This document shows, piece by piece, positions 46,795-50,509 of a DNA stretch of 64,000 bases. The position numbers were made by a program, and so were the translations under genes. How positions within the stretch are numbered: the first letter of the stretch is position 1; every line of letters begins with the position of its first letter. Origin of the DNA: Hyphobacterium sp. CCMP332. GTDB taxonomy: Bacteria > Bacteroidota > Bacteroidia > Cytophagales > CCMP332. The notes beneath the pieces are model-generated. The model saw nothing but the letters and a program-made list of their open reading frames with translations. It was not told the origin of the DNA and made no database searches. Where the stretch lies: NCBI GenBank assembly GCA_014323545.1, contig CP058647.1, forward strand, positions 2,148,001 to 2,212,000, read 5' to 3'.

Positions 46795-46817
46795 GCCCTG
46801 GATTATTTCAGGGCTTT
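46795..46817 (+). terminator. Terminator after atpC
   Basis: GCCCTG (46795-46800) and CAGGGC (46809-46814) form a 6-bp stem with loop GATTATTT, followed by TTTGTT. The right half lies within the 3' end of crcB on the other strand. Confidence 0.7.
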
Positions 46818-47176
46818 GTTAAAAGATAAGCAGTTGAAGCTGCCAAAATCCCTCCAATTAAACTTGCCGCTATATATGCGCTTGCCATGAGGAAATCTCC
46901 CTGTTTTAGCAAAAAGTAATTTTCATAAGAAAAGGTAGAAAAAGTAGTAAAACCACCACAGAAACCCGCGCTGGCCAATAATATCAAGTCCTGGTTAAGT
47001 GAAGGTTCTTTTTCATTGAAAGTTATTAAAAAACCCAGAAGCAAAGAACCGGCTATATTCACGATAAAAGTAGGCCAAGGAAAGCCCGATGAACCCAGGG
47101 TATAAAAAGTAATACTCAAATAATAGCGGAAGACACTCCCCAGTCCCCCACCTATAAAAACCAATAATAGCTTCAC
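46808..47176 (-). CDS. crcB: Fluoride channel CrcB/Fluc
   Basis: A 122-residue membrane protein with four transmembrane helices; exports fluoride as an inverted dimer. Marks: GGGLGSVFRYYLS at the N terminus, FIVNIAGSLLLGFLI, and the pore motif GFCGGFTTFSTFSYE with the stacked Phe residues. Single gene; no fluoride riboswitch was recognised in the 92-bp spacer upstream. It converges on atpC and its stop lies within that gene's terminator hairpin. Confidence 0.93.
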   Translation of the reverse strand: MKLLLVFIGGGLGSVFRYYLSITFYTLGSSGFPWPTFIVNIAGSLLLGFLITFNEKEPSLNQDLILLASAGFCGGFTTFSTFSYENYFLLKQGDFLMASAYIAASLIGGILAASTAYLLTKP

Positions 47177-47268: not shown

Positions 47269-48315
47269 ATGTTGAAAGGTTGGCATGAATTAGCATTGTT
47301 AGTATTGGTATTCTGTACCGTTCTCTCATGTAATTTTAATCCTGATGGAGTAAATCCACCAAGTTGGAAATCTAGTTTTATTGGGCCTTTGGCTAATTCA
47401 AAAATCACATTAGAAGACCTTTTGGATTTTGATTCACTGGGGTTTAATTATGAGGTTTCGGCTTCGGAATTGTCCAATCAAATTCCTCCGGGAGGTGCTA
47501 CTTTTCCCCTATTTCCTCCTTTTTCAGTGCCATCTTTACCCCCAGATACTTTTGATATTGCCGAAGGATTTCAATATGCCATTTTTGATTCCGGAGAAAT
47601 TGTTTTTGAGTTTATAAATAACCTGCCTATTACACTTAACTCCGGACAAATAATAAGCGTTTACAGCGTAGTCGGTCCTAACAGGAATCAATTGGGAGAT
47701 AAAATTTTTGATTTCACATTGGAAGATAATCTTGAAGCAGGAGGTCGCGCGACAACCATTTACTCTGATTTCACCGGCCTGGTGGTTTCTTCGCGATTAA
47801 TAATTCAAATTGATACGGTCAGCTCCCCGGGGAGTACCACGCCTGTAACCTTCGACTCCGAAAGCGGTTTTGAACTGACATTCTTTTTTAGAAATATTAA
47901 AGTTCGCGAAGTTGGGGTATCCGCCGGTAATTCCTTTGTACTGGGCGATACTACACCATTTACTTTTAGTTCAGGTACCATCCCCTCAACACTTGAGTCG
48001 GGCATATTGAAATTGCGAATGAGAAATGGAATTCCACTAAATATAGATCTAAACCTTGATCTGTATGATGAGAACATGGATCGATTGGGCAGTTTTATTG
48101 AAGCAGGCCAGAATATTATAAGCGCATCTGATACCTCGACGATCACCGTGGTTGTGGATGAGAATAACCTGGACTTATTAAACAATACTAGTTTTCTTGT
48201 TTCTTCTGTACTATTGGAAGATCAGGCGGTTCAGGGAGATACCGTGATTATCAATTCTGATTCCCTGGTGAGAGCAAAAATTATTGGAGAAGTAGATGTA
48301 GACTTGGTCAAATGA
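47269..48315 (+). CDS. Hypothetical lipoprotein, co-transcribed with DUF5723 gene
   Basis: A 348-residue predicted lipoprotein: signal peptide WHELALLVLVFCTVLSC with lipobox TVLSC, then NFNPDGVNPPSWKSSFIGPL. The body is beta-rich with many Ser/Thr/Pro turns and a proline-rich loop (IPPGGATFPLFPPFSVPSLP, ~residues 72-91). I recognise no domain. It ends with a 4-bp ATGA overlap with the DUF5723 barrel gene, so the two are coupled and may act together at the outer membrane. The opening resembles N termini of other Bacteroidota lipoproteins that precede barrel genes, but function is open. Confidence 0.8.
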   Translation: MLKGWHELALLVLVFCTVLSCNFNPDGVNPPSWKSSFIGPLANSKITLEDLLDFDSLGFNYEVSASELSNQIPPGGATFPLFPPFSVPSLPPDTFDIAEGFQYAIFDSGEIVFEFINNLPITLNSGQIISVYSVVGPNRNQLGDKIFDFTLEDNLEAGGRATTIYSDFTGLVVSSRLIIQIDTVSSPGSTTPVTFDSESGFELTFFFRNIKVREVGVSAGNSFVLGDTTPFTFSSGTIPSTLESGILKLRMRNGIPLNIDLNLDLYDENMDRLGSFIEAGQNIISASDTSTITVVVDENNLDLLNNTSFLVSSVLLEDQAVQGDTVIINSDSLVRAKIIGEVDVDLVK

Positions 48316-49727
48316 AAATAAGATTTACGATACTATTTGCGATTCTAACACCTTTGCTATTATCTGCGCAACACAATATCGGCACCACCTATTGCGAACA
48401 TAATGATCTTAATGCATCGAGATATCAACCCTCTGAACTGGATTTTGGCGATAAAAAATTTCAGATAGGCTTTAATTACGATTTTTTCATTGGCAACAGG
48501 AGCATTGATTATGCGGAATTAAATGCCGCATTTAATGATGATCAATTAACGCAGGAAGACATTCAAACCATTGTGAATGAATCAGATGAAATAAATCAAA
48601 TTGGTCTTGGGCAAAACTACCAGGTTATCGGACTCGGATACCAGTTAAGAACCCGTTCCGGAAAAAAATATGATATAGCATTTACAATTGTCGATAAATT
48701 TTCTGCCACACTTCAGCTTTCGAGAAATTTTTTAAAACTGGCACTTGAAGGCAATAATTCATCCTTTTTCAGAGGTCAGCGTGTGAGTATGGGGGAGACC
48801 AAATTGAGTGCGCTATACACCAGGGCCTATGCCTTTAATATTGCTATGCCTGTTTTTTTTAAAGACAATGATCATAAAGTCAGGATAGGAATCCGGCCAA
48901 AGTTTATTCAAGGCATGGCCGGTGTCAATCCGGAGTCTTCCGAAGTGTTTTTAACCACTGAACAGAACGGTGAATTTATTCAGATGGATTTTAATTATAA
49001 TTATCAAACTTCCGGAATTCAAAATTTTGATCCCTTCAAGGCAAATGGGGTAGGTTGGGGCCTGGATTTTGGTGTTACCGGGTTTATTTCTGAGCACTTT
49101 GAAGTTGCGGCAAGTGTATTAAATCTTGGATCGGTTACATTTAATAATAATGTCAAGACTTATTCAAAAGAAGGCAGCCACCGCTTTGAAGGCATCTTTA
49201 TACCTAATCTTTTGGGCGCTTCACCCGCCAACTTGGATTTTGAAGAAGAATCCAGCATCTATAATCCTGTAGTCACTGAGGACGAATCATTTTCAATGGG
49301 CCTTGGTGCCAGAATTGGTTTGGAATTACAATATAAAACACCCGAAAAGCCCAGAACAAGAAGAGCCATGACTATGGCAAGAAGTATAAAAAAAGGTAAG
49401 GAAAGACAAGCAAAGCAAAAAGAATACGAAGGGAACATTTCAAATACCATATACTTCACATACATCCAGGGGCTGGATGAACAACCTGGCAATACCACAA
49501 GGCCATTTGTTTCTGTTGGATATATGCATGATTTCCACGATTATTTTGATATTGGTGTTTCGGCCGCTTATGGTGGATTTAACAATTTAGCCTTGGGAGC
49601 ATTTTTCGCTGTAAATATTGCCCACCATGTAAAATTTGGACTGAGCTCTGATAATATAAGTGCTTTAATTGTACCAAAAACAGCCACCGGCTTTGACATA
49701 GCGACTAATTTTTCCGTTTCTTTCTAA
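48312..49727 (+). CDS. DUF5723 family outer-membrane protein
   Basis: A 471-residue exported protein (signal peptide ends LLLSAQ) with repeated amphipathic strands and the pattern of DUF5723 (LNASRYQPSELDFGDKKFQI, KANGVGWGLDFGVTGFISE, a C-terminal ATGFDIATNFSVSF ending in Phe), hence probably a large outer-membrane barrel. An Arg/Lys-rich loop (RTRRAMTMARSIKKGKERQ, ~residues 345-365) is unusual in charge. Coupled to the upstream lipoprotein by ATGA overlap. Its stop codon lies in the A-run that serves as the T-tract of the minus-strand RNA terminator. Confidence 0.82.
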   Translation: MKIRFTILFAILTPLLLSAQHNIGTTYCEHNDLNASRYQPSELDFGDKKFQIGFNYDFFIGNRSIDYAELNAAFNDDQLTQEDIQTIVNESDEINQIGLGQNYQVIGLGYQLRTRSGKKYDIAFTIVDKFSATLQLSRNFLKLALEGNNSSFFRGQRVSMGETKLSALYTRAYAFNIAMPVFFKDNDHKVRIGIRPKFIQGMAGVNPESSEVFLTTEQNGEFIQMDFNYNYQTSGIQNFDPFKANGVGWGLDFGVTGFISEHFEVAASVLNLGSVTFNNNVKTYSKEGSHRFEGIFIPNLLGASPANLDFEEESSIYNPVVTEDESFSMGLGARIGLELQYKTPEKPRTRRAMTMARSIKKGKERQAKQKEYEGNISNTIYFTYIQGLDEQPGNTTRPFVSVGYMHDFHDYFDIGVSAAYGGFNNLALGAFFAVNIAHHVKFGLSSDNISALIVPKTATGFDIATNFSVSF

Positions 49728-49855
49728 AAAAAAACCCCGAAGCGTAAACTGCGGGGCTCTAAGATTTGGGGGTGTGTTATTGGAGACCTTTCAAATCCAA
49801 TAAGGGAACGAAGACTATCCCCGCCTTCCTTCACTGACACCCCCTCAAAATCTTG
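49726..49855 (-). ncRNA. Structured small RNA candidate with its own terminator
   Basis: Read on the minus strand, a ~15-bp closing stem (49837-49854 with 49761-49775, one small bulge) encloses a purine-rich strand (AGTGAAGGAAGGC), a 4-5 bp hairpin (GGGGA...TTCCC, 49804-49822) and an 8-bp hairpin (TTATTGGA/TCCAATAA, 49777-49803). After AGAG comes a terminator: CCCCG...CGGGG (49756 to 49735) with nine T. No gene lies downstream on that strand, so it is a free RNA and not a riboswitch. Size and a long closing stem would suit a 6S-type RNA such as 6S-Flavo, but I cannot confirm a family. The rest of the 323-bp spacer (49856-50050) shows only AT-rich sequence and the TTTGTC...GACAAA repeat at 50000-50019. 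Confidence 0.6.
49735..49756 (-). terminator. Terminator of the small RNA
   Basis: On the minus strand CCCCGCAG...CTTCGGGG (49756 to 49735; 5 bp, one mismatch, 2 bp) is followed by nine T at 49734-49726. On the plus strand the hairpin has no T-run, which fixes the direction. Confidence 0.8.
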
Positions 49856-50050
49856 GGTCAATTATTAAATCACTAAATGGTTTTACCCTTTTGGTAATTC
49901 TAAAGTAGTAAAAATCAGGTCTGGGTAAATAACCCTTTTTGGGGGATTTTTAAATTTTTAATTCTTAAATGGCTTAAAACGAGACTTGTCATTTTGAATT
50001 TTGTCAATAAATGGACAAATGAAACATGAATTATTTATCACTTTTATAGT

Positions 50051-50509
50051 ATGAGAATCGCAATAATCTTTTTTTCATTTCTAATTATTTTATTCTCTTG
50101 CAAAGATTCCCAGGACGAAGTGATGGATCCCGGTTTAATCATTGAAGCACCTGATGACAAAATGGAAATTGAAGAAATTCTGGCTGGGACATCTTCGCGG
50201 GCATGGGTAAGTCAAAATTTTAATTTAGAAATATATGGTTCAATAGAATGCAGATCGGATGATATCTTTACTTTTTTCACAGATGGAACATTTGAATACG
50301 ATGGTGGTTCGATGCTTTGCGGAGATTCTGACAATTCGCAGATTGTTACAGGAACCTGGGAAGTAGATTTAAATAATAATCGTATTGTATTCGATAAAGG
50401 CCTGGACACTGAGACAATCGCCAACTATATCACTGTGAAGGAAGATGTATTAAGAGTAATGGGTTCATGGAACAGTCTTAGTATTGATGCCAGCTATATC
50501 AGACAGTAA
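50051..50509 (+). CDS. Lipocalin-like lipoprotein
   Basis: A 152-residue lipoprotein (lipobox LFSC, near residue 18) with an acidic linker and a C-terminal beta-rich part: SSRAWVSQNFNLEIYGSIEC, DDIFTFFTDGTFEYDGGSML, TGTWEVDLNNNRIVFDKG. The TGTW and FTDGTFEYDGG elements match the small lipocalin-like domains common in Bacteroidota lipoproteins. Two Cys (in IECRSDD and MLCGDSD) could form a disulfide. Ligand unknown. It converges on the minus-strand response regulator gene. Confidence 0.75.
   Translation: MRIAIIFFSFLIILFSCKDSQDEVMDPGLIIEAPDDKMEIEEILAGTSSRAWVSQNFNLEIYGSIECRSDDIFTFFTDGTFEYDGGSMLCGDSDNSQIVTGTWEVDLNNNRIVFDKGLDTETIANYITVKEDVLRVMGSWNSLSIDASYIRQ

Follow-up and report, generated by a model that had tools for sequence, protein, structure and literature searches.

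A conserved, terminator-ended structured RNA in an intergenic spacer of Hyphobacterium sp. CCMP332 and its family, probably a trans-acting small RNA

The window analysed here is a 64,000-nucleotide stretch of the Hyphobacterium sp. CCMP332 genome (contig CP058647.1, positions 2,148,001 to 2,212,000), and all coordinates below are positions within it. One of its intergenic spacers is flanked by a gene for a DUF5723 protein (48312-49727; PF18990), which converges on the feature studied here, and by a divergently transcribed gene for a small lipoprotein-like protein (50051-50509) in which no Pfam match was found. Past the lipoprotein-like gene lie a LuxR/NarL-type response regulator and then a Reg_prop/Y_Y_Y/HisKA_3 sensor. 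On the minus strand of the spacer is a putative small RNA gene whose approximate transcript spans 49726-49855, coordinates that had been proposed in an original prediction and that proved correct. The gene order around the RNA, including the convergent arrangement, is identical in both relatives that carry it.

The nearest minus-strand gene downstream of the RNA is crcB (46808-47176), almost 3 kb away with convergent genes between, which bears out the earlier claim that no gene stands under the control of this RNA. Because the minus strand holds no gene until crcB at 47176, the RNA is not a leader. A riboswitch or attenuator was considered and rejected, as the RNA does not lie in the leader of a same-strand downstream gene. 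The crcB gene itself encodes a fluoride channel, and the fluoride riboswitch (RF01734) was not called in the window at its gathering score.

The minimum free energy of the minus strand of 49715-49860 is -50.6 kcal/mol, and 1 of 200 dinucleotide shuffles folded as well (z -3.42), in agreement with the predicted structured element followed by a terminator with nine T. Within this fold a closing stem encloses two hairpins, and the terminator follows directly, its T tract lying at 49734-49726. At the center is a conserved core of 77 nt (49768-49844, minus strand), which when folded alone gives z -3.0 in the window genome (G000) and -2.6 and -3.5 in two other genomes of the same family (G001 and G002). 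The core is bounded by the arms of the closing stem, GGGGGUGU (49837-49844) and ACACCCCC (49768-49775), which form eight pairs with 100% of alignment cells paired and differ among the three species by a single change of U-A to U-G. In the window genome, and there only, an outer stem of AAGAUUU (49848-49854) with AAAUCUU (49761-49767) extends the closing stem beyond a UGA bulge. Of the 15-bp closing stem first described, the inner 8 bp are thus conserved, whereas the outer 7 bp are confined to the window genome.

The most conserved part of the core is hairpin 2 (UUAUUGGA-UUUGAAAGGUC-UCCAAUAA; 49777-49803, minus strand), whose 27 nt show no change in the three species, loop and stem alike. It corresponds to the 8-bp internal hairpin noticed earlier, and its invariant 11-nt loop (49785-49795) is a candidate site for binding a target or a protein. 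Hairpin 1 carries most of the core substitutions and can adopt two mutually exclusive forms. Form A (49806-49832) has the stem GAAGGAAGGC/GUCUUCGUUC and the loop GGGGAUA, with a probability of about 0.98 in G000, 0.26 in G001 and 0.03 in G002. In form B (49804-49822) the GGGGAUA segment is paired with the UUCCC side; 95% of cells are paired, all pairs but one are invariant, and its probabilities are 0.00, 0.71 and 0.93, respectively. In the window genome hairpin 1 is a stem with 9 of 10 bp formed, but the relatives favor the competing hairpin. Form B fits the alignment slightly better, with 97.9% of all cells paired as compared with 94.3% for form A, a comparison that three sequences cannot decide. 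A purine strand that had looked conserved proved to vary more than any other stretch of the core: AGTGAAGGAAGGC in the window genome is replaced by AGTGAACGATTGC in one relative and AGCGAACGATTGC in the other.

The intrinsic terminator (49726-49760, minus strand) consists of the stem AGAGCCCCG/CGGGGUUUU followed by T9, and shares positions with the stop codon of the DUF5723 gene, which converges on it. Its position is kept in the relatives while the stem sequence has been rebuilt with compensating changes, including two doubly compensated pairs (C-G/G-C/A-U across the three species, and G-C/C-G), and a U tract is present in the minus direction only. Covariation is seen solely in the terminator, the location of both pairs with two-sided changes, and the shuffle controls are weak (for most measures, 24 to 36 of 500). 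The inner stems show so little variation that covariation speaks neither for nor against the fold of the core.

In each of the two relatives, which are species of a different genus, the core is 91% identical and ungapped (E 8e-25 per genome), and our covariance model (R1) matches G000, G001 and G002 at 104.6-106 bits. Over the same locus, the DUF5723 protein is 50% identical to its counterparts in the relatives, the lipoprotein 34-36% and the response regulator 76-78%, and the spacer outside the core aligns poorly between the window genome and the relatives. A neutral spacer would not look so; the core of this RNA gene is therefore subject to strong purifying selection. The original prediction had expected its stems to be conserved in relatives, and they are, the inner ones being mostly invariant. 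Strong matches in a DNA search were confined to the two other genomes of the family that were examined. The same element is present in two GTDB records of Cytophagales metagenome-assembled genomes, JANQHS010000135.1 (PL24a_bin.2) and JANQSY010000114.1 (IP31a_bin.1), and the name IP31a occurs in a coral-skeleton study (PMC9868349).

In the genomes searched so far the RNA appears to be confined to the family. A covariance-model search of roughly 670 genomes found no relative beyond the family. Within the order, all three family genomes were positive and none of the 288 others matched convincingly, although fast divergence could hide relatives. No convincing match was obtained in a class-level genome sample searched with the covariance model, or beyond the family when 37 relatives (34 of them outside it) were rescored with laxer filters. 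Neither blastn searches for homologs outside the family nor inspection of the DUF5723-gene loci of other families recovered the RNA. A 17-mer loop pattern run against 84,980 species, together with a relaxed pattern in viral contigs, returned about 30 extra matches, as many as chance alone would give and none of them accompanied by the remainder of the RNA. Two weak model matches (L023 and L024) lie inside open reading frames and were set aside as chance. No known family accounts for the RNA: none of 4227 families matched it at the gathering score in the window, and nothing credible appeared in 49600-50000 at E<=10, RF01685 included. We consider the RNA to be a genuine but uncatalogued family of a familiar kind, the lineage-restricted intergenic sRNA.

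Several features upstream of the core bear on how the RNA may be transcribed. The -7 element recognized by sigma-ABfr in Bacteroidota has the consensus TAnnTTTG (PMC7366714), and perfect boxes of this form (TAAATTTG and TATCTTTG) occur at the same place in G001 and G002, 20 nt before the core. These boxes suggest that transcription would start just 5' of the closing stem. No good -7 box was found at the equivalent position of the window genome, and because of this absence the 5' end there is placed by inference only; a weaker possibility, TACTTTAG at 49907-49900, would give a longer 5' end. Farther upstream, a box common to the three spacers (AAAATCCCCCAAAA; 49937-49950, minus strand) is a possible operator. 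In the relatives (at the matching places in loci L040 and L031) this box, AAAnATCCCCCAAA, is the left arm of an inverted repeat whose other arm is GGGGATAG, and the repeat stops 21 nt short of the -7 box, a position at which activator binding might be expected. Transcription could perhaps be controlled through this repeat, and an attractive idea is that the neighboring LuxR-type regulator may control the RNA via the upstream region. The word GGGGATAG also occurs, invariant, inside the RNA.

Taken from sequence, the case for an RNA gene lies in conservation far above that of the neighborhood, a closed and branched fold, a compensated terminator in the minus direction, and the lack of both a coding frame and a downstream gene. 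The original view that the RNA gene stands alone and has a terminator of its own has held up, with the element conserved in relatives, no gene downstream and no match in Rfam. We favor the interpretation, to which we assign a probability of roughly 60%, that the locus encodes a structured RNA of roughly 125-135 nt, transcribed on its own and ended by the terminator, with a regulatory role in trans. A trans-acting intergenic sRNA is expected to form its own terminator-ended unit with no adjacent gene controlled in cis, and this is what the sequence contains. The parts doing the work would be the invariant ones, above all hairpin 2 with its loop UUUGAAAGGUC but also GGGGAUAG, and they would either bind a protein or base-pair with target mRNAs independently of Hfq. 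Hfq was not found in the three family genomes, and Bacteroides is likewise reported to lack it (PMC7366714).

Between these two modes of action, we put target pairing first, with protein binding not far behind because the hairpin 2 stem is as invariant as the loop, something that pairing through the loop alone would not require. Exact copies of the 10-nt loop antisense GACCTTTCAA, counted with the RNA's own site included and compared with the reversed control, numbered 8 against 15 in G000, 23 against 13 in G001 and 19 against 7 in G002. The enrichment is not consistent, and no orthologous targets for this antisense emerged across the three genomes. Two intergenic copies of GACCTTTCAA, L095 (G000:C1:2522208-2522217) and L099 (G001:C59:1183-1192), lie 46-47 nt ahead of genes for secreted or lipoprotein-like proteins, as measured to the first predicted start; the encoded proteins are unlike each other and the placement is probably chance.

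That the RNA binds a protein instead of pairing with targets, as a sponge or as the scaffold of an RNA-protein particle, is the alternative we take most seriously, though we hold it tentatively. Invariance of both stem strands and the loop of hairpin 2 suggests recognition of sequence and shape together, and the failure to find antisense targets agrees with this, but the repeated motif of CsrB-type sponges is missing and no candidate partner protein was identified. We can also imagine that the two exclusive shapes of hairpin 1 and the invariant hairpin 2 make up a functional module of a new class of structured RNA in this Cytophagales family, a proposal that we rate as improbable; such a module might, for example, regulate by switching shape or in dependence on a protein, or might stand in for 6S RNA.

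6S RNAs bind the RNA polymerase holoenzyme and serve as template for pRNA, and the original prediction offered a 6S-like RNA as one reading. A strongly diverged 6S-type RNA, sequestering the housekeeping RNA polymerase by mimicry of an open promoter, would be similar in size and likewise free-standing with a terminator, and 6S-Flavo (RF01685) resembles the present RNA in being a free-standing, stem-closed Bacteroidota RNA of 100-130 nt. By eye, a likeness to the -7 element TAnnTTTG can be seen in the invariant stretch TGGATTTG. The 6S RNA of this lineage also goes unannotated by Rfam, as RF01685 falls below its cut-off (gathering score 85 bits) in the searched genomes of the order: none of 59 relatives exceeded it, the best score in G000 was 24 bits, and the 45 of 345 sampled genomes of the phylum in which RF01685 was found all lie outside the order. 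Several observations nevertheless argue against this reading. RF01685 does not match 49600-50000 even at E<=10. Its model is a rod without branches, in which internal loops set apart four short stems and the flanks are conserved; the present RNA has neither the rod shape nor those flanks, being branched, with two hairpins inside the closing stem. A housekeeping 6S RNA should be present throughout the order, yet the RNA was found in one family and not in the order's other families, and this restriction disfavors a 6S function. A genome from another family of the order, G012, has a stronger 6S-Flavo candidate, although its 33.2 bits are still below the threshold. We therefore regard a 6S identity as unlikely. 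The G012 match (L065:1501-1624, G012:C77:12901-13024) aligns over the whole model and has matching flanks (CAAC..., CAAGCC and AGGAGUUU); it is possibly a diverged Cytophagales 6S RNA missed by Rfam.

Two further explanations carry very little weight. In the window genome the terminator overlaps the DUF5723 stop codon, and the relatives have retained the convergent order, so that read-through could in principle switch or attenuate antisense transcription into the DUF5723 gene; but the terminator stem, rebuilt in each genus, has no conserved sequence in common with the core, which leaves no sign of a conserved antiterminator pairing, and the minus direction is free of genes for almost 3 kb. It is just as hard to believe that the locus is a conserved DNA site, for protein binding or recombination, or a small protein. 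The core is rich in inverted repeats and one minus-strand frame stays open through it in all three species, but compensating changes have preserved the terminator in one orientation, plasmids contain no match to the RNA, and phages yielded only one chance match of 23 bases. In the open frame, two of the differing codons are synonymous and five nonsynonymous. A small protein was rejected, with mostly nonsynonymous codon differences in every frame of both strands.

A trans-acting regulatory RNA thus remains the preferred reading, and it has parallels in known systems. GibS of Bacteroides thetaiotaomicron is likewise an independent intergenic unit in a genome without Hfq and presumably regulates post-transcriptionally (PMC7366714); the present RNA differs in being highly structured and is not known to be related to it in sequence. 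Orphan structured RNAs restricted to one lineage have come from comparative genomics, as with Flavo-1 (RF01705) and Bacteroides-1 (RF01694) (PMC2864571), each a conserved structured orphan of one Bacteroidota branch like the RNA described here, which, unlike them, has no Rfam family of its own. At present it is a well-supported orphan sRNA known from three sequences. It adds an uncatalogued RNA family to Hfq-less Cytophagales, a group that has relatives from coral skeletons and for which Rfam offers hardly any annotated regulatory RNA, and its mechanism, if found, would inform how small RNAs are used in Bacteroidota that lack Hfq.
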